Shown piece by piece: positions 5,027 through 23,141 of a stretch of 23,141 nt of DNA. A program made the translations under genes and the position numbers. The number at the start of each line of letters is the position of its first letter. Positions within the stretch are counted from its first letter, which is position 1. The notes below the pieces were generated by a model. The model searched no databases. It was not told the origin of the DNA and saw only the letters and a list, made by a program, of their open reading frames with translations. Source of the stretch: a virus. The DNA is taken from positions 1-23,141 of the IMG/VR virus record IMGVR_UViG_3300014838_001986; one strand, given 5' to 3'.

Positions 5027-6537
5027 TGGTTCTTGACCCATTCTTCATACAACGGATCCCGCGGAACAAGCGCGCCCGGGCGCAAGCCGCGCTGCTCAAG
5101 TTCCGGCGGTATCAAGAACCGATCTTCTGGTGTTCGTACGGGATGCTGATCCTGCATTGGAGCCGCCAGATCGGGAAAAGCTTTGTGCTGGCTGCATGGG
5201 CGGTAATCCGGTTGCTCGAAAATCCGGGCCGGCTGGTGACGGTGCTGAGCAATAGTAAGTCAAACGGCATGGAGTTTGTTTTGAAGGCGGCGCAGGTTTG
5301 CGAGCTGCTGCAAGTGAGCTGCCAGACGGCCGATCTCTCACCGGATAAGCGTGTTGAAAATATGCGAATGGAAATCCGCATCAAGGTGAACCGCAAAATA
5401 GGCCGGATCGTTTTCCTGGCCGCGAATCCCCGCACGGCGCGCGGCTTTTCCGGAGACCTGATCCTGGATGAATTCGCTTTCCATGAGGATAGCGCGGCGA
5501 TCTGGGACGCGGCGGAGCCCATCATCTCCAGCAACCCGGATTACCGTTGCCGCATCGCAAGCACAGGCAATGGCCGCTTCAATATGTTCTATCAAATGGC
5601 GAATGAATCTTCGTCGTATCAGGTATCCCGAATCCGCCGGAGCGAAGCCTACCAGATGGGAATAAAGATCTATGATCCGGCAACGCGGCGGGAACTTACC
5701 CCCGAGGAAGCCCGATCCGCCTCCCTCGACAAAGCGAGTTACGACCAGAACTACGAGTGCGCCTTTAATGACGAGAACATGGCGCTGCTCACTCTCTCCC
5801 TGATCAGCGAATGTGAATACCCACTCGAAGCCGGACCCAATTGGCCAGAGGCCGCGCCCGAATGTTGCATCTGCTCGCAGGATTGGACCCGAGAAGCGAT
5901 TGAACGGCTGCGGGGATGCAAGGGACCGCTCGGAGTCGGCCTGGATGTGGGACGGACCCGCGACATCACCGTAATAACCGCCGGCGAAAAGATCGGCGGC
6001 ATCATCTTCACCCGCGCAATCCTCCGCATCAGCGCGATGCGACTGCCGCAGCAACTGGACCGGCTCCGGCCTCTGCTGGAGATGCCTAACTTTGGCAGGC
6101 TCAGCGGCGATGCCACCGGCCTCGGACTTGGTCTTGTCGAGTTTGCCCAGGAGGAATGCGGCGCCTATCGGGCGGAGGCAGTCCAATTTGGCAGCCGCGA
6201 AAAACGGACTCTCCAGGGCATTCAGCAAGCGGACTCGGCACTGGTGACAGAACTTATGGCGCTCGACTTACTCGAAGCGTTTGAAAACCGCGCCATCCGA
6301 ATCCCGTGCGAGCCAACGCTGCGGGACAGCCTGCGGAAACCCGAGCGCATCACGACCGGCAGCGGGGTACGCATCGCCGCGACACGCGATGGCGCCGGGC
6401 ATGCCGACGAGTTCTGGAGCATGGCGCTCATGGTGCGCGCCTTAAAGGGGGCCAGCACCGTCTTTGCTTACGACGCGACGGACCCGATACCCGGCGAAAG
6501 ACACGCTTCAATGGAAAGAAAGGCACTTACATGGTAA
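5026..6537 (+). CDS. terL: Terminase large subunit, Mu gp28-like
   Basis: DNA packaging motor of 503 residues. The ATPase part shows a Walker A-type SRQIGKS at 46-52 and Walker B LILDE at 145-149, followed by a coupling-type STGNG at 179-183. The C-terminal RNase H-like nuclease shows three acidic positions: Asp307 (GLDVGR), Asp362 (SGDATG) and Asp461 (HADEFW). The protein hydrolyses ATP to drive DNA into the prohead and cuts it to finish filling. Mu-like enzymes package by headful from the inserted genome. The start overlaps the small subunit stop as TAATG, with GGAAG at 5017-5021, indicating coupled translation. Confidence 0.93.
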   Translation: MVLDPFFIQRIPRNKRARAQAALLKFRRYQEPIFWCSYGMLILHWSRQIGKSFVLAAWAVIRLLENPGRLVTVLSNSKSNGMEFVLKAAQVCELLQVSCQTADLSPDKRVENMRMEIRIKVNRKIGRIVFLAANPRTARGFSGDLILDEFAFHEDSAAIWDAAEPIISSNPDYRCRIASTGNGRFNMFYQMANESSSYQVSRIRRSEAYQMGIKIYDPATRRELTPEEARSASLDKASYDQNYECAFNDENMALLTLSLISECEYPLEAGPNWPEAAPECCICSQDWTREAIERLRGCKGPLGVGLDVGRTRDITVITAGEKIGGIIFTRAILRISAMRLPQQLDRLRPLLEMPNFGRLSGDATGLGLGLVEFAQEECGAYRAEAVQFGSREKRTLQGIQQADSALVTELMALDLLEAFENRAIRIPCEPTLRDSLRKPERITTGSGVRIAATRDGAGHADEFWSMALMVRALKGASTVFAYDATDPIPGERHASMERKALTW

Positions 6538-7889
6538 CACCCAAAAACAGAATCAACCGTGCGAACGGCAGCCCCACGGCGGCCCGACCGCACCGCGCCC
6601 CGAAAACAGAAAGCCTCGTGAGCGCGGACGTCGTGCAACTGGCGCTGCGGTCCCGCTTCAATCCGCTGCGAGGACTGACGCCGCAGCTTCTCTCCGTATA
6701 TCTGGATAATTTCATGCTCGGTTTCGTGGCCTATGCCGCCCTGGTATGGGACCAGATCGAGAAGCGGGACGACGTGATCCGCAACGTGGCCAGCAAGCGC
6801 AAGAAGGCCATCGCGAAATTCAAACGCCAATCATTCCAGCGCGAGGACAGCCCCGAAGCCGAGGCGCACGCGGAGGCGCTGGATGACTTTTACGATAACA
6901 TGACCGTGGTCAACGCGCTCGACGAAAACGAGAAAGGCGGATTCCCCCTCCTGGTGCGCCAAATGATGGACGCGGTCGGAAAGTATTACGCGGTGCATGA
7001 GATCGTATGGCAACCCGGAGAACTTCTTACGGCGGAGCTGCGATTTGTCCCTCTCTGGTTCTTCGAAAACCGCTCCGGACGGCTCCAGTTTCTCAAGCTC
7101 CCGCTGGGCGGCGCAAACGGGGAGCCGCTGGAGGAGGGCGGATGGATGATCACCAAAGGCGACGGCATCATGGAGGCGTGTTCGATTGCTTATATGTTCA
7201 AGAATATGCCACTGAAGGATTGGGTGGCTTACTCCGATAAGTACGGAACGCCTGGGGTGCTGGGGCAGACCAATGCCGCGAAGGGAAGCGAAGCCGGCGA
7301 AGCCTTGAAGGCCGCCGTGGCCGCCTTTGGACAGAATTGGTCGGGGGTGGTCTATGGCGCCGATGGAACAGTCAAGGACCCTATTTCATTAATCACGGCG
7401 CGCGGCGAAGGAACCCTTCCGTTTCCCCCGCTGGTGGAGAGGATGGATCGAGCCCTGGCGTCCTTGTGGCGCGGGAGCGATCTCTCGACCATGTCCGGAG
7501 ACCGGAACGGGGCAAGTGTCCAGGAGGACGAAAGCGACATTCTCCTGGAAGACGATGCCGCGATGATCAGTGAGACGCTGCATCTCCATATCGACCGGTG
7601 GGTTATCTGGCAGAAGTTCGGAGTAAGGCCGCTCGCTTACTCGCGGATCGTGATCCCGGAGTCACGGAACATCGATCTGGACTTGAAAATCGACGAGTTG
7701 CTGCTCAAAGCCGGCGCCCGCATGGGCGAGCGGGAGCGGCTTGAATACTACGGCCGCCCGTTGATCGCGGCACAGGACCTCCCGCTGCATAATCCCGTGA
7801 CCATCATGGAACGCATCCAGGACGCCACCCAGAACCAGGAACTACCGGCAGAAAATCTGCCGAATCAGGAGAACCATTCAACCACCTAG
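6531..7889 (+). CDS. Portal protein, DUF935 (Mu gp29-like)
   Basis: A 452-residue portal. The region from about residue 50 carries the DUF935 pattern (LTPQLLSVYLDNFMLGFVAY, ALVWDQIEKRDDVI, then KYYAVHEIVWQPG and DWVAYSDKYGTPGVLGQT). Portals form the dodecameric ring through which DNA enters, and bind the terminase and neck proteins. The ATG at 6531 is chosen because AAAGAAAGG (6515-6523) sits seven bases upstream; it overlaps the terminase end by seven bases. A longer in-frame reading from 6306 exists, but it would overlap the catalytic end of the terminase. The last 30 residues are Gln/Asn-rich and probably disordered. Confidence 0.9.
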   Translation: MVTPKNRINRANGSPTAARPHRAPKTESLVSADVVQLALRSRFNPLRGLTPQLLSVYLDNFMLGFVAYAALVWDQIEKRDDVIRNVASKRKKAIAKFKRQSFQREDSPEAEAHAEALDDFYDNMTVVNALDENEKGGFPLLVRQMMDAVGKYYAVHEIVWQPGELLTAELRFVPLWFFENRSGRLQFLKLPLGGANGEPLEEGGWMITKGDGIMEACSIAYMFKNMPLKDWVAYSDKYGTPGVLGQTNAAKGSEAGEALKAAVAAFGQNWSGVVYGADGTVKDPISLITARGEGTLPFPPLVERMDRALASLWRGSDLSTMSGDRNGASVQEDESDILLEDDAAMISETLHLHIDRWVIWQKFGVRPLAYSRIVIPESRNIDLDLKIDELLLKAGARMGERERLEYYGRPLIAAQDLPLHNPVTIMERIQDATQNQELPAENLPNQENHSTT

Positions 7890-16805: not shown

Positions 16806-19349
16806 ATGTCCTGGCTTCTACAAATCAATGGGAATGCGGCGCAGAGTTTCACGGAGCTGCAATGCGTGGATCTCAAGAGGGAGTTGCGCTCGCAGGCGGC
16901 GGGGACGTTTTCGTTCCGCCTGAATGTGCAGGCGTTCGAGAGCGATCCGATAGCGAATCCGGACGACCTTGCGACCGTGATGTGGGTGGCCGGAGAGTTT
17001 GATACCACCATGTTTTCCGGACGGGTAACGCGAGTGCCTGTGGCAGGGTCGACGGGAAAGGAGGACCAGACTTACGAAATAAGCGATGCATGGAGTGACT
17101 TTGAGCGGATCACGTTTCAGCAGCAATGGAACCGGATCACCGGTGTGGACGAGAGCGGGGCGCCGACGAAGGCGTACCAATACAGCGCGTGCTGCCTGCT
17201 GGGGGTGGATGTGTATGGGAACGCGCAGGATAGCGCGTCGGTTATCACCGAGGCGGTGACGTGGGCGATCTTGCGCGGGGCGAATTGCCAGATAGGGCAG
17301 ATCCTGCGGGACGGCGGGGCGAGCGCGGGATCGCCGGTGCCGGTGGATGAAGTAACCGATCTGCCGGTGTCCGAGATCATCAAGAAGATGCTGCGATTCA
17401 CGCCGGACGCGGTGGCGTGGTTTGATTACAATTGGTCTCCGCCGAAGTTCAATGTCACGCGGCGGGCGCAGTGCGCGGCGGTGACGCTGCCGTTTACCAA
17501 TGAGGGGCAGGGGGTGGAAGTGACGCCGCGGCATGACCTGGTGAGAACCGAGGTGCTGGTCCGGTACGAGCAGGAGAACCAGACGGACGGCGTGCCCAGT
17601 GTGACCGTGATCGCGGACGCGGCGCCGGATGGCGCGGATGGGCTGGCGTTCAACGCCCTGGTATCGACCGTGAGGCTGGCCGGGAGTAACGCCGCGTTTC
17701 AAAAGCAATACGTGCAGACGGCGGCAATCCCGCAGGATAACAGCAGCGGGGACGGGGGAGGGCCGGCGGATGATCCCACGATAGATTGGTGGTGGGATCA
17801 CGTGCCGTGGCTGCAACAGTTTTCCAAGGACCGGCTTTCCATCACGAATGTGAACGGAACCGTGGACCCGGGACAGAAGGACCCGAACGGGGATGGCGAA
17901 TATATCGAGGATGACATTCGCAAGTATCCCAATGAGCTGATCAGCGGGACCGTGGCGCCCTGGATGAATTGTTACGTGGGGCACACCACGTGGACGGCGC
18001 TGGTGTATTATAACTACCCGGACACGTCGGATACCGAGTCGGATGCGGCGGAAAACGTGTTCGGGCCGGATGACGGGAGCGACAACGCGAGCGCGCAACT
18101 GCCGATCTACGCGCAGGTGGTGGCGACAAGCGCGGTGACGCAGACCTATGCGCAATTATCCTCCTACACGAGCCCGGAGCCGGTCCCCACCGGGCTGGCG
18201 GCAGAGTTGTATCGAGCGGTGAACCCGTTGCAATACGAGGGAACATGGGATGTGGTCCAAGAGGAGCCATACGCGGGCGGGATGCTGGGCGTGCTGCTCA
18301 ATCTCTCCGGCGGGCGCGCGGAATGGACGGCCATGAACGCGCTGGTGCAGGAAGTCTCCGATAACCTGGACAAAGGGATCACGACTTACAAGTTCGGCCC
18401 GGCACGGCAATTGAGCATCGCGGACCTCATGGAGCAATTGCGGGCAACGCGGCGGCGGACGATCTCGGGCAAGATCAAGGAGCGGACTACGGGGCAGCCG
18501 GGCGACGCGCCCACGGTGATCGGGTCATCGCACGGACCGGACTCCAGCAGCAGCACGCCGCCGTCGAGTTTCCGGTATCCGTGGATCGATTACATCACGA
18601 GCCAGGAGAGCCTGGATGGGAGCAATGACACTTACCAGGCTCTTCTGGGTTACGGGCAGAGCAGCTTTGCGGGGGATGATAGTATTGACCATTCCGGGCC
18701 GCTGGAGAATCTGGAGGTGAGCGTTGGCAATGACGGGAGCGGATGGACGGGGCCATACTATGATTGCGGCAGCCTGTATAATGTCTTTTCCGTGGTGAGC
18801 GGGGATGACACGAGCGCGAATGACTGGCTCTGGATCGGGCGGACCGACTCCGATGGCAATGGCGGCTCGGCGCGCATTGTGCCATCTGATCCATCGCTTT
18901 ATCTGTCCCAGAATCTGGACCCGGGGGATGATGGCGACGGGGATGCATTCATTAACCTTTCGCTGGGCGACCTGATCCTGGAGATACAGGACAGCGACGG
19001 GCAATATATCCACCTGGACGTGGATGCGATGCTGGTGGAAATCCAGGACACGGACGGCAACCTGATCGATCTGGACCTGAGCGGCGACCCAATCATCAAG
19101 GTCGAGAACTCGGACAATGGAAGTCACGCCTATCTGGATGAGAACAGCCTGAATTTATCCGATGGAGATACCGGCAACGCAGCCGACCTGGAGGCGAACA
19201 GCCTGAGCCTTTATGACGCGGGAACGGGAGCAACGGTGACCATCGATGCTTCGGCGACCGGAGGGCACGACGTTAGTTTTCAGGAGGTGCAGATATGCGT
19301 GAGCGGCACGACGAAGACCATTCAGGTGCTTGCGAGCGCGCCGTATTAA
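16806..19349 (+). CDS. Large tail hub/fibre protein
   Basis: An 847-residue protein. The first 300 residues resemble a baseplate hub or distal tail protein (FSFRLNVQAFE, VMWVAGEFDTTMFSGRVTRV, YEISDAWSDFERITF, ADAVAWFDYNW-like sandwich). The middle is beta-rich with no catalytic motif. Residues about 700-820 hold short acidic Asp/Gly repeats (LILEIQDSDGQY, MLVEIQDTDGNLIDLD, IIKVENSDNG, LNLSDGDTG, LSLYDAG), like a fibre built from beta units. The end EVQICVSGTTKTIQVLASAP is a compact tip. It probably joins the tube tip to the receptor-binding region. No tape-measure gene precedes it, which is unusual. Confidence 0.72.
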   Translation: MSWLLQINGNAAQSFTELQCVDLKRELRSQAAGTFSFRLNVQAFESDPIANPDDLATVMWVAGEFDTTMFSGRVTRVPVAGSTGKEDQTYEISDAWSDFERITFQQQWNRITGVDESGAPTKAYQYSACCLLGVDVYGNAQDSASVITEAVTWAILRGANCQIGQILRDGGASAGSPVPVDEVTDLPVSEIIKKMLRFTPDAVAWFDYNWSPPKFNVTRRAQCAAVTLPFTNEGQGVEVTPRHDLVRTEVLVRYEQENQTDGVPSVTVIADAAPDGADGLAFNALVSTVRLAGSNAAFQKQYVQTAAIPQDNSSGDGGGPADDPTIDWWWDHVPWLQQFSKDRLSITNVNGTVDPGQKDPNGDGEYIEDDIRKYPNELISGTVAPWMNCYVGHTTWTALVYYNYPDTSDTESDAAENVFGPDDGSDNASAQLPIYAQVVATSAVTQTYAQLSSYTSPEPVPTGLAAELYRAVNPLQYEGTWDVVQEEPYAGGMLGVLLNLSGGRAEWTAMNALVQEVSDNLDKGITTYKFGPARQLSIADLMEQLRATRRRTISGKIKERTTGQPGDAPTVIGSSHGPDSSSSTPPSSFRYPWIDYITSQESLDGSNDTYQALLGYGQSSFAGDDSIDHSGPLENLEVSVGNDGSGWTGPYYDCGSLYNVFSVVSGDDTSANDWLWIGRTDSDGNGGSARIVPSDPSLYLSQNLDPGDDGDGDAFINLSLGDLILEIQDSDGQYIHLDVDAMLVEIQDTDGNLIDLDLSGDPIIKVENSDNGSHAYLDENSLNLSDGDTGNAADLEANSLSLYDAGTGATVTIDASATGGHDVSFQEVQICVSGTTKTIQVLASAPY

Positions 19350-19685: not shown

Positions 19686-20774
19686 ATGTCCATCGGCTCA
19701 TTCCATCAGCCTGATTCGAGCGGGAAGTGCTGCGGGTGCCTCACGGATTGCGGCTCCTGTTGCACGGTCACCTATCAGACGCGATCAATAACGATGGCGA
19801 AATGCGGGTATCTCGGACCGGCTACCGGGCCATACTCCAATATTACGGGTACGAATCCGTATATAGACAGCATTATACCCGCATATGTTTCGACTCATTG
19901 CCCGCCTCCTTCCGGGTACGTCGCCAGCACAGTAGTTCAATGGTATCACAAAAGCCAGTATTGCACCATTCAATACGATGGGTGCATATGTTATAGCCTG
20001 GATTACGGCGATGAAATGCCCCAATTGGATATGTATCTGGATTGTGGGTGTTCTGGGTATTGTCCGCCCCCCACCAATCAAGGCGGGGAAGGAGGAACAG
20101 GAGAATGGTATGCGAACACCATTCCTTCAGGGTGTCAATCAGTTCCCAATTGGGGGTCTTATCAGGGATCGAGGGTCGGTCCTCAATCCCCTGGCACCGT
20201 ACAAAATCAGTTTAGTATCGATCCCGGAACCTGCGGCCCACCCACTTCATCAGGGTCACAGACAATAGAAGGGGAATCTACGGTAAGTGGTGAGGCGTTC
20301 GATTCCCAGGATTGTAGTGGTTCCGGGAACCCCTGGTCTGCGGTTGGTAACGCCATAATGTCTCTTGCCTGCGGGACGACCTGGGTGAATCAATATCTCT
20401 ATGACCCATATAGCGACCAGGAACTGCTGGGATATGCGCGGACGGCTTTGACCGGCGAGAGCTGGACCGCGTGTAGCGGGACCTGCATGGCGAGCGTCGC
20501 GTTTACCGGCAAAAACGACGAGGATTATACGGACGTGGCGATGACCGACCTGCAATACACGGTCACTTCCGGCGCCGACGGAGGGACCTGTTACTGGACG
20601 GTGCGCTTTACGAATACGAGTGGCGGCATTACTGACACGGCGATGAGCGGGAGTGGAACATTCACCCTAAGACCGGACGGAATGGGAACCCTCAATTATG
20701 ATGGCAACAGTAACTACGCATCCGGGGCGGGAACCTGGCAGATTATTAACCTATCCGGCAATGCGCCCTCCTGA
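19686..20774 (+). CDS. Cys-rich tail-end protein with C-terminal beta-sandwich
   Basis: A 362-residue protein whose first 140 residues hold many Cys, including six within residues 15-26 (KCCGCLTDCGSCC) and a later DCGCSGYC. The pattern suggests metal binding or, outside the cell, disulfide packing. The middle is rich in Gly, Ser and Pro. The last 130 residues look like an Ig-like or jellyroll beta domain (DLQYTVTSGADGGTCYWTV, TNTSGG, GSGTFTLRPDGMGTLNYDG). I do not recognise the family. Its place after the hub and before the accessory genes suggests a tail-tip or receptor-related part. It overlaps the next gene by 14 bases. Confidence 0.6.
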   Translation: MSIGSFHQPDSSGKCCGCLTDCGSCCTVTYQTRSITMAKCGYLGPATGPYSNITGTNPYIDSIIPAYVSTHCPPPSGYVASTVVQWYHKSQYCTIQYDGCICYSLDYGDEMPQLDMYLDCGCSGYCPPPTNQGGEGGTGEWYANTIPSGCQSVPNWGSYQGSRVGPQSPGTVQNQFSIDPGTCGPPTSSGSQTIEGESTVSGEAFDSQDCSGSGNPWSAVGNAIMSLACGTTWVNQYLYDPYSDQELLGYARTALTGESWTACSGTCMASVAFTGKNDEDYTDVAMTDLQYTVTSGADGGTCYWTVRFTNTSGGITDTAMSGSGTFTLRPDGMGTLNYDGNSNYASGAGTWQIINLSGNAPS

Positions 20775-21372
20775 TCCAGGCCTATCCATGATGCTGGCGG
20801 TGGCAAATAGCCGCCGCGACATTTGCCTGAACCGCTGCCCGAATGGCGCGGCCCGATGCGAGCAATGGCTGGCGTCCTCCGGTGCGGTAACAGAGGCGCA
20901 CGAGGCTTTTTGTCCCGCTGGCGCATGGCATGAGTACCATTACAACGCGGCACGGAGGGCTGGGGCGGGGGGGGCGGGGCAATTGCGGATTGCGGATTTC
21001 GGATTGCGGAATGCGGAATGCAGAGGCGGCAGAACGCGGTTACCAGACGGGGCGGGGACGATCTTGAAGAGGATGCTGGGATGGGTGGGAATCAAGGCGG
21101 CGGAGACATGTGCGTGCAACCGGCGGGCGGCGGAGATGGATCGGCTGGGGATGGATTGGTGCGCGGCGAATATGGAGACGATCGTAGGTTGGCTGGAGGA
21201 GGAAGCGGGGCGGAGGGGGATGCCGTTTAGCCGGTTCGCGTCGCGCTGGCTGGTGAGGGCGGCAATCGCCCGGGCGCGGATTGGATTAGCATTATTTTTA
21301 TGGACACACACAATAACAACAGCAACTCTAATGAAGAGGCCGTGGGCGCTCAAAGTGCGCCGGCGGAGATAA
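20761..21372 (+). CDS. Two-part Cys-containing phage protein with heptad-encoded linker
   Basis: A 203-residue protein. Residues about 10-60 carry a Cys set (ICLNRCPNGAARCEQW, later FCPAGAWHEYH), similar to small zinc-ribbon-type phage proteins ending in a CPxGxW motif. Residues about 100-180 hold a second block (TCACNRRAAEMDRLGMDWC, then METIVGWLEEEAGRRGMPFS), a helical pattern with CxC and a later Cys. Between them QLRIADFGLRNAECR is translated from ATTGCGG-type heptads. The start at 20761 overlaps the previous gene by 14 bases; an upstream in-frame ATG at 20698 lies inside the previous gene and is less likely. The end overlaps the next gene by 73 bases. Function is unknown. Confidence 0.55.
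   Translation: MRPPDPGLSMMLAVANSRRDICLNRCPNGAARCEQWLASSGAVTEAHEAFCPAGAWHEYHYNAARRAGAGGAGQLRIADFGLRNAECRGGRTRLPDGAGTILKRMLGWVGIKAAETCACNRRAAEMDRLGMDWCAANMETIVGWLEEEAGRRGMPFSRFASRWLVRAAIARARIGLALFLWTHTITTATLMKRPWALKVRRRR
20982..21023. repeat. ATTGCGG heptad tract inside a coding region
   Basis: Six heptads in phase: ATTGCGG (20982), ATTGCGG (20989), ATTTCGG (20996), ATTGCGG (21003), AATGCGG (21010), AATGCAG (21017). Forty-two bases equal 14 codons, so the reading frame is kept. The unit is the reverse complement of the family at 12393-12427 (CGGATTT / AAATCCG). Confidence 0.92.
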
Positions 21373-21575
21373 ACTCCGGCAAGGTGAACGATGCGGCGCA
21401 GCAGTTGCAGGCGGCCGTTTCGAGCTTTGCGCAGGAAACCCAAAGAAACCAGGAAAGCCTTATCGCACTCATAAAACAAATGAGCGACCAACTCCGATCA
21501 ACCGATGCCAAGGGGCGGGCGGACCGCGCGCAGATTGATAAGCTTGCGAGTCAGATTCGCAATTACCGGAGCTAA
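21300..21575 (+). CDS. Coiled-coil phage protein
   Basis: A 91-residue soluble protein. After a flexible Asn/Ser-rich start, residues 27-90 form a long amphipathic helix (DAAQQLQAAVSSFAQETQRN, then LIALIKQMSDQLRST). It shares short motifs with the N-terminal part of the next, toxin-like protein: SFAQE (42-46) and DRAQIDKLASQI (75-86) compare with TFAQE and DNAEIAMLSAEL there. A duplicated structural or tail-associated coiled coil is one reading. No enzyme motif or clear ribosome binding site is seen. Confidence 0.6.
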   Translation: MDTHNNNSNSNEEAVGAQSAPAEINSGKVNDAAQQLQAAVSSFAQETQRNQESLIALIKQMSDQLRSTDAKGRADRAQIDKLASQIRNYRS

Positions 21576-21606: not shown

Positions 21607-22581
21607 ATGAGCGACAACCACTCTAATAACCTGGCCGACTCGGAGCGCGAAGACCTGGAACTAACCCTGGCCTGCGTGGGGCAGATCACCCGGGAGTTCG
21701 ACAACATGACATCCCGGTTGCGGATGGACAATGCGGAGATTGCCATGTTGAGCGCGGAGCTTCAACGCCTCGGCGGCAGCGGCAGCCGTAGCGCAAGCCC
21801 GGCGGGGCGGGGAGATTCCGCCCTCGCGGCGGGCTTCGAAGAAATCGAGCAATCGCTGGCGAGACAAAGAGCGCTGGGAAAAGTGCTCTGCGACGCTGCT
21901 TCCACCTTTGCCCAAGAGTTGGTCCGCTGGGGGGAGGATTTGGAGAGGCGCGAGCAACAGCAAGAGACTGCTTTATTGTCTTCCCCTTCCCTTCCAATCG
22001 TAACGGGTGAAAATGGACTGCTGCCGGACGAGTTCGGCGTTCCGGAGGGCTTACAAGAACGGCAGCAAGACGACTCGAATGCTTCTGAAGTATCGGGAGA
22101 AAGCTTTATTAATAAGACTTTACTTGCTCTGGCAGTAAAAAAGCCGGATGGTTCCGTAGTAATAGTCATGACTAAAGTAAAAACCCAAGAGCAAGCCGAT
22201 TTACTTGGAGTGCCCATCGGTACGGATGTGCCAATCTTTGTGCCGCCTGATGTCGACCCTCAAGCAATGGTCGATCAATGGAGTCGGCCAACGGAAAAAA
22301 GCCCAATCGATTTTTACGAAACGTGGAAGCCAGGCGGACCAAACGATTACAAAAAGAGATTTGGTGCCATTTATGACGCCTATGGCAATTTTGAATATGG
22401 GGCGACAGGCGCGGCCTATGGATTTACCAAAGCGGAAATAGAGGGAGGGGGTGAGATGGCCGCATTTTATCAACATCACGCGTTCAATAACCCGATCAAT
22501 CGCGCGGACATTGGGGCGGGCCATAGTGTGATCAGCGGAGGCGGGAAACTTCTAACAATCCCGTACAAGTGGATCCCATAG
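21607..22581 (+). CDS. Polymorphic toxin-like protein, type-44-like C-terminal domain
   Basis: A 324-residue protein in two unlike parts. Residues 1-125 are helical and coiled-coil, phage-like and GC-rich. Residues about 160-225 form a linker with a small beta region (DGSVVIVMTKVKTQEQADLL) like the pre-toxin segment of secreted toxins. Residues about 235-312 resemble the bacterial toxin type 44 domain: WKPGGPNDYKKRFGAIYDAY, NFEYGATGAAYGFTKAEIEG and a late GAGHSVI with His306. This family is found at the C-terminus of contact-dependent and other polymorphic toxins; a nuclease-like or related activity is assumed, not shown. GC falls from 46/60 (21781-21840) to 22/60 (22081-22140), marking imported DNA. 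The gene after it is the likely antidote. Confidence 0.7.
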   Translation: MSDNHSNNLADSEREDLELTLACVGQITREFDNMTSRLRMDNAEIAMLSAELQRLGGSGSRSASPAGRGDSALAAGFEEIEQSLARQRALGKVLCDAASTFAQELVRWGEDLERREQQQETALLSSPSLPIVTGENGLLPDEFGVPEGLQERQQDDSNASEVSGESFINKTLLALAVKKPDGSVVIVMTKVKTQEQADLLGVPIGTDVPIFVPPDVDPQAMVDQWSRPTEKSPIDFYETWKPGGPNDYKKRFGAIYDAYGNFEYGATGAAYGFTKAEIEGGGEMAAFYQHHAFNNPINRADIGAGHSVISGGGKLLTIPYKWIP

Positions 22582-22595
22582 GTCCGCGCCAAGAC

Positions 22596-23141
22596 ATGAA
22601 CATTATGAACAACGCTTTCTTTGCTTTTTGTAAGCGGAATAAGGGCAAAGTGCTGCTTCTAGGTTTGTTCCTGATATTTATCATACTTTTTTATCTCGGA
22701 CCTCGGAGCAGGTTTCCTTCTGACCTCCCAAAAGACAGCGAACTCGTGGCATCTTTTCGGGAGCACCATGAAGCGTTTGAAGCGCTTTGCGCAATGGCCC
22801 TTGAAGATAGTGAACGTGTTTCCGACATAAGCGTGGACACCTTGCGCGAAACTTCATTGGAGAAACATCGCAAAGCCCAATATAGGGACCTGCTGGAACA
22901 AATTAAGCGCGATATGGATATAGGAATCGACGATCACGAAAGAGTGTTGTTCTCTTATAGCGGAGGAGGGGAGTTCTTAGCCATTAATCGGACTTGGGGG
23001 AAAGGCATTGCATATTATCCGAGTGGCCCTTGGAAAGGTAATTTAGTGGTAAAGGATTTGGATCATTTGGGGGATCGGGATGGGATTTACCTCGTGCCGC
23101 TTGAGAAAAATTGGTATCTTATCTATCAGAATTTGGATTGA
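22596..23141 (+). CDS. Membrane-anchored putative immunity protein
   Basis: A 181-residue protein with one transmembrane helix at about 18-35 (KVLLLGLFLIFIILFYLG) and a soluble domain (SFREHHEAFEALCAMALED, KGIAYYP, then RDGIYLVPLEKNWYLIYQ). The pattern of an anchored domain starting with FxxHxxxFExL and ending with NWYLIY occurs, as I recall, in small proteins beside polymorphic toxins. The short 14-base gap after the toxin and the matching low GC support a toxin-immunity pair. ATG 22596 is chosen because an in-frame ATG at 22569 lies inside the toxin; 22605 is also possible. The gene ends exactly at the window end. Confidence 0.62.
   Translation: MNIMNNAFFAFCKRNKGKVLLLGLFLIFIILFYLGPRSRFPSDLPKDSELVASFREHHEAFEALCAMALEDSERVSDISVDTLRETSLEKHRKAQYRDLLEQIKRDMDIGIDDHERVLFSYSGGGEFLAINRTWGKGIAYYPSGPWKGNLVVKDLDHLGDRDGIYLVPLEKNWYLIYQNLD

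Follow-up and report, generated by a model that had tools for sequence, protein, structure and literature searches.

A divergent Ntox44-like domain and a membrane-anchored putative immunity protein at the right end of a Mu-like phage record

Introduction

Does the right end of this viral genome encode a toxin together with its antidote, and if so, is the pair part of the phage and where in a target cell would the toxin act? The questions are raised by two overlapping reading frames that close a stretch of viral DNA of 23,141 bases (hereafter the window), which is one entire IMG/VR record. The original prediction described these frames as a phage-borne toxin and its immunity protein, and both are present as described:

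21607 to 22581, plus strand: toxin reading frame, 324 residues, ATG start
21607 to 22050, plus strand: N-terminal part of the toxin (residues 1-148), a proposed carrier, coiled-coil-like and of phage-like base composition
22051 to 22581, plus strand: C-terminal part of the toxin, a beta-rich linker followed by an Ntox44-like helical domain (residues about 205-324)
22569 to 23141, plus strand: putative immunity protein, 190 residues, starting at GTG 22569 or ATG 22596 and overlapping the toxin stop by 13 bases

Results

A temperate Mu-like phage and its probable host

The gene order of the window comprises a repressor with HTH and S24 domains, an endolysin (GH108), a terminase, a Mu-type portal, a Mu-like protease, a major head protein and tail-region genes. 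A portal alignment search identified relatives in 11 viral contigs and 47 genome loci, and since all of the genome loci fall in Verrucomicrobiota or close kin, the phage host is very probably a verrucomicrobium; a genome scan using the tail protein as query gave no matches. The listed start of the portal frame (6306-7889) is probably too early, with the true start nearer 6594, and the stretch of L003 that corresponds to the upstream part of this frame contains stops. The first base of the record lies at a GTG start codon and the last base belongs to the stop codon of the final reading frame, so the record is probably a provirus trimmed at gene ends, with a right border that was the choice of a program.

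The C-terminal domain of the toxin is related to Ntox44

A type-44-like toxin domain had been predicted, and the region proposed for a profile search (residues 230-324) does match that family. Pfam-A assigns 37 residues only (255-291) to Ntox44 (PF15607, "bacterial toxin 44") with an E value of 5.2e-5 and a score of 24.0 bits that equals the cut-off of 24, and an NCBIfam scan gave no match. Clear Ntox44 proteins were gathered from plasmids and one verrucomicrobial genome and then aligned, and further members were sought in viral contigs by profile and then by motif pattern. The pattern GNFxYGATG gave five distinct viral-contig proteins (L143, L144, L145, L147 and L149) that score 30-58 bits against PF15607 and whose combined profile aligns to the canonical Ntox44 profile with an hhalign probability of 97.8%. 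Toxin residues 205-324 align to these five proteins with a probability of 97.6% (E value 3e-12, 40% identity over 65 columns), and the match extends beyond the core as PPxVD...FY...K(x)GG(x)xDYK...Y(D/E)AxGNFxYGATGAA.G. Because of the profile alignment and this extended motif, the relation of the domain to Ntox44 can be regarded as secure.

Searches of viral contigs and of phage and plasmid records identified no direct relatives of the toxin or its partner, and a PF15607 search of the phage relatives and 15 host genomes returned none. Ntox44 is rare in the phylum, with 2 of 388 genomes above the cut-off, one of these an artefact. The PF15607 matches of genome G242, which are short pieces at contig starts, were treated as artefacts; several of its contigs (L113, L115) open with an identical peptide followed by unrelated sequence, resembling an assembly or adapter artefact. 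Also rejected were a chance match in G014 (L151), which contains stops, and two glycine-rich false positives (L148 and L150). A sequence search of the PDB returned chance matches only, and PADLOC found nothing credible.

The N-terminus had been described as a phage-style coiled coil, and half of this description stands: the first ~115 residues are coiled-coil-like, but a phage-style character by homology did not emerge, as the sole phage-family match is a weak one to a tape-measure protein (E value 0.035). The toxin N-terminus has no homolog among the virion genes of this phage, and no convincing one was found in 365 genomes of the class. A 16-residue stretch is held in common with a short frame directly upstream (E value 0.015), described below. 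Hydropathy identified no transmembrane segment in the toxin, and the predicted lack of known secretion domains was borne out, with no match to PAAR, VgrG, LXG or MuF (Pfam scan, and PHROGs too for MuF).

The partner is a putative single-pass membrane protein

A membrane-anchored protein had been expected at the immunity position, and the overlapping frame agrees with this expectation in having one N-terminal transmembrane helix. A small partner gene directly after the toxin tip is the layout of polymorphic toxins and their immunity genes. Two features of the partner are relevant:

22644 to 22700, plus strand: single N-terminal membrane helix (residues ~26-44), hydropathy 2.44 over 19 residues
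22728 to 22787, plus strand: motif PKDSELVASFREHHEAFEAL, weakly common to L130:2618-3289, the partner of a canonical Ntox44

The helix is preceded by the basic residues KRNKGK and, by the positive-inside rule, the C-terminal domain is predicted to lie in the periplasm, outside the inner membrane. The partner could be assigned to no family (Pfam-A, NCBIfam, hmmscan). Its similarity to L130:2618-3289, which matches Pfam DUF4948 (PF16306), reached an E value of 3e-4 by BLASTP of the single pair and 0.004 by phmmer. Neither a search of the window with the DUF4948 profile nor hmmscan of the partner gave a match at E <= 10, and the sequence relation of the two partners is suggestive only. A phylum search with the partner as query was discarded as hydrophobic-stretch noise.

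The pair lies beyond the conserved tail end

Consistent with the predicted placement after tail genes, the pair follows the conserved last tail gene. The genes that lead up to it are:

16806 to 19349: 847-residue tail-region protein, 75% identity in L002
19686 to 20774: cysteine-rich protein of no known function
20698 to 21372, plus strand: final gene of the conserved tail end, marking the limit of what the phage group shares
21300 to 21575, plus strand: 91-residue coiled-coil-like frame that starts inside the preceding gene

The final conserved gene encodes a cysteine-containing C-terminal domain (CxCxxRAAxMDRxGxxWC...ILDWLEEEA), and its homologs close the tail module in the relatives L029 (E value 1.5e-24), L153, L167 and L168. 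The position of the cysteine-rich gene at 19686 after the tail protein is likewise kept in relatives out to Spartobacteria (L153, E value 4e-13). Three genes are absent from all phage relatives, namely the 91-residue frame, for which a homolog search was negative, the toxin and the partner. At the matching phage end of the closest relative (L002:13246-14478), a 410-residue glycosyltransferase-like frame with a C-terminal DCGCxxRQ motif replaces the toxin pair, indicating that this end of the phage is variable.

In L153 (Spartobacteria genome G012), host genes begin within about 0.2 kb after the homolog of the last conserved tail gene, and the pair could therefore lie just outside the right prophage end, as a chromosomal toxin-immunity locus that was included by an over-long provirus call and encodes a bacterial polymorphic toxin unlinked to the particle. 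Its absence from the phage relatives and the opening and closing of the window at a start and a stop codon are compatible with this arrangement, which we nevertheless consider rather unlikely. The pair is on the same strand as the tail genes, the 91-residue frame starts inside the last of them and the other gaps are short, while no promoter-like or terminator-like site on the plus strand between the tail genes and the pair rises beyond chance. In the L168 prophage, the stretch between the last conserved tail gene and the host genes holds additional genes on the same strand, one of which weakly matches tail-needle and hemolysin proteins. The lack of a homolog of the toxin N-terminus in genomes of the class and the rarity of Ntox44 in the phylum also speak against a chromosomal locus. 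On balance, we regard the pair as probably phage-borne.

Base composition changes inside the toxin gene. Most phage genes have a GC3 of 0.65-0.78, and the first half of the toxin (21607-22080) has a GC of 0.60 and a GC3 of 0.70, compared with 0.48 and 0.46 for its second half and 0.46 and 0.48 for the partner gene. The best GC change point, 22051, lies about 56 codons upstream of the point where the aligned Ntox44-like domain starts (22219) and separates a GC of 0.588 from one of 0.467, with a log-likelihood ratio of 26.7 measured from 16806; in a 1535-base frame the ratio for the break, 13.4, only equals the maximum of 13.4 among ~200 other stretches. Because a phage-like first half is followed by an AT-rich toxin domain and partner, the pattern fits a cassette of tip plus immunity gene joined to a resident N-terminus, where resident may mean of the phage or of the host. 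No relative with the same toxin N-terminus and another tip was found among the phage relatives and the 365 genomes.

The toxin departs from canonical Ntox44 at one of three motifs

Zhang et al. 2012 name three Ntox44 motifs, DxK, GNxxxG and DxxxD (PMC3482391), and the corresponding positions in the toxin are:

22345 to 22353, plus strand: DxK (D-Y-K, residues 247-249), conserved
22384 to 22410, plus strand: GNxxxG (GNFEYGATG, residues 260-268, with GNFEYG at 260-265), conserved
22486 to 22500, plus strand: DDxxD position, which reads NNPIN (residues 294-298), with asparagine in place of all three aspartates

The DxxxD motif is absent from the window toxin, and the other aligned sequences have DDxxD. 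In an alignment of twelve sequences (the window and 11 others), the window alone departs from these nearly invariant aspartates and from a nearly invariant tryptophan before DxK, which is asparagine here. Because DDxxD reads NNxxN, the sequence describes a divergent relative of Ntox44, not a canonical member; a pattern for the NPxNxxDI variant gave no matches.

An AlphaFold model of toxin residues 163-324 (mean pLDDT 86, pTM 0.83) contains a linker rich in beta structure followed by a helical domain, with residues about 218-310 mostly helical, in line with the all-alpha fold of Ntox44. A second model, of a canonical Ntox44 (pLDDT 75, pTM 0.77), is helical with a hairpin. Searches of the PDB and BFVD with both models gave no Foldseek match at E <= 0.001 and VIA Z scores below 5, and since no credible match was obtained no enzyme class can be read from the fold, a result that does not imply that the fold is new.

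Catalysis by the NNxxN form may be altered or lost, and its activity is doubtful. The substitutions at the aspartates and the tryptophan would be accounted for if the domain were catalytically dead, either as a structural or decoy protein after loss of DDxxD or as part of a decaying module. This appears improbable given the intact reading frame, the good confidence with which the fold is predicted, the retention of the overlapping partner gene and the preservation of both DxK and GNxxxG.

Most genes directly after Ntox44 toxins encode membrane proteins

A cytoplasmic toxin is normally countered by a soluble cytoplasmic immunity protein. We surveyed the gene immediately downstream of each Ntox44 toxin and treated near-identical or same-type loci as one, which gave 13 groups besides the window, with the Photobacterium and Klebsiella plasmid loci left out. 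The gene encodes a membrane protein in 11 of the 13 independent groups, distributed as follows:

Single N-terminal transmembrane segment or anchor, nine groups: L125 (Treponema), L129, L130, the PAAR-like L131-L136, L143/L146, L144, L145, L147 and L149
Three transmembrane segments: L126/L127
Five transmembrane segments: L112
Membrane partner absent: L124, L128

The segment of the L131 partner is just below the threshold, and the L147 helix was read by eye from the sequence. As a control, a single N-terminal transmembrane segment is found in 18 of 106 reading frames of 90-260 residues in the same loci, partners included. The Ntox44 gene at L124:2761-3414 sits amid conjugation genes on the Sinorhizobium plasmid pAK76, with no adjoining membrane partner.

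As the anchored partners come from unrelated sequence families, the survey argues for an envelope target of Ntox44, in the membrane or periplasm, rather than the predicted RNase role. Ntox44 was listed under predicted RNases by Zhang et al. 2012 (PMC3482391) and is called a nuclease in later papers (PMC9635880, PMC9134191), and the accepted RNase label appears to rest on prediction; no experiment on Ntox44 was found in the literature examined, not counting Ma et al. 2017, a study to which PMC9635880 refers. Under that label, the window toxin would be a cytoplasmic RNase bound by its partner either during its entry or at the inner face of the membrane, with anchoring incidental. The soluble immunity protein normally expected for such a toxin is not what the loci offer, with membrane partners of at least three topologies in most groups, and we consider a cytoplasmic RNase unlikely.

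Toxin and membrane partner recur in unrelated phage contigs

Three unrelated phage contigs show the same layout of toxin plus membrane partner, in each case close to genes for structure or packaging. The L129 toxin gene comes immediately after that of an internal virion protein (phrog_511, E value 6e-135), the L144 toxin lies near a portal (phrog_156), and the L149 toxin is found between a terminase (phrog_2) and a portal (phrog_1497). The L129 toxin (L129:5578-6519) and a 449-residue protein encoded in the same prophage record (L139:5049-6398, minus strand) have their N-terminal ~25 residues in common (GYRxxxFMDGFxxGxDFVxxLQ, E value 1e-4), which hints at a shared sorting signal there; the window gives no comparable hint. 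A second toxin-like gene (L139:1004-1876, minus strand) lies in the same prophage record (G413), encoding a Zeta-toxin domain protein (PF06414, E value 3e-15).

A further reading, that the window toxin is exported by a secretion system of the cell (T6SS or other) and that its gene hitched a ride in a prophage, is very unlikely. Six viral-contig Ntox44 loci (L131-L136) are PAAR-like, a label read from sequence, and one plasmid locus follows VgrG, but this toxin has a coiled-coil-like N-terminus and neither a match to PAAR, VgrG or LXG nor a transmembrane segment.

Discussion

A proposed mechanism and its generality

The explanation that we favor by a modest degree is that a temperate Mu-like phage of Verrucomicrobiota bears a two-gene toxin module of polymorphic type, as accessory genes ending its late operon. 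The toxin would have a coiled-coil N-terminus of phage type and, fused to it, a tip that resembles Ntox44, and the partner would be a single-pass inner-membrane protein that faces the periplasm and blocks the tip. Late expression, release, envelope target and immunity are the steps we infer: the toxin would be produced along with the late genes, exit the cell at lysis either free or attached to the particle, reach the envelope of neighbors and cause damage from the periplasmic side, while the anchored immunity protein would let lysogens survive.

Of broader interest than the pair itself is the finding that the partners of Ntox44 toxins are, in most groups, membrane proteins. It is conceivable, and we put this forward tentatively, that all Ntox44-type toxins act on the envelope and are not RNases, and that, independently of one another, unrelated temperate phages encode such toxins next to their virion genes, as weapons that can be released or are borne by the particle and that are paired with membrane-anchored immunity; the window would hold a divergent NNxxN form. 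If so, a widespread family that carries the RNase annotation would have the cell envelope as its target, and its T6SS, T7SS and phage members would have to be tested differently. Beyond the MuF family, phages of Gram-negative Verrucomicrobiota would also join those suspected of arming their lysogens against kin.

Comparison with known systems

The closest relatives of the pair by domain are the Ntox44 (PF15607) polymorphic toxins, for which the 2012 survey lists T2SS, T6SS and T7SS (PMC3482391). As in these, the window toxin is a longer protein that ends in a related domain in which DxK and GNxxxG are present, and a small partner gene follows; it differs in having NNxxN for DDxxD, no known carrier domain and a phage setting. 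The MuF polymorphic toxins of temperate phages (PMC5576092) and Bxa of Bacteroides (PMC11699363) are also related in concept. Like the MuF toxins, the window combines an N-terminal carrier, a toxin tip and a downstream immunity gene encoded by a temperate phage with protection of lysogens, although these roles are putative here; unlike them, its protein is without a MuF domain, its genes follow the tail rather than the packaging module, and its partner is membrane-anchored. The pair presumably also resembles the S-pyocin-like coiled-coil bacteriocins encoded beside tail cassettes, as may L143, L147 and L149. Similar to these, it combines a long helical part, a tip of the Ntox44 type and a small partner with a membrane anchor, and release at lysis is plausible, whereas no receptor-binding domain was recognized in the window protein and the phage has head and packaging genes. 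Set among these systems, the pair is probably a phage-borne toxin module of polymorphic type, in which a domain that resembles Ntox44, but has its DDxxD motif altered, is coupled to a membrane-anchored partner.
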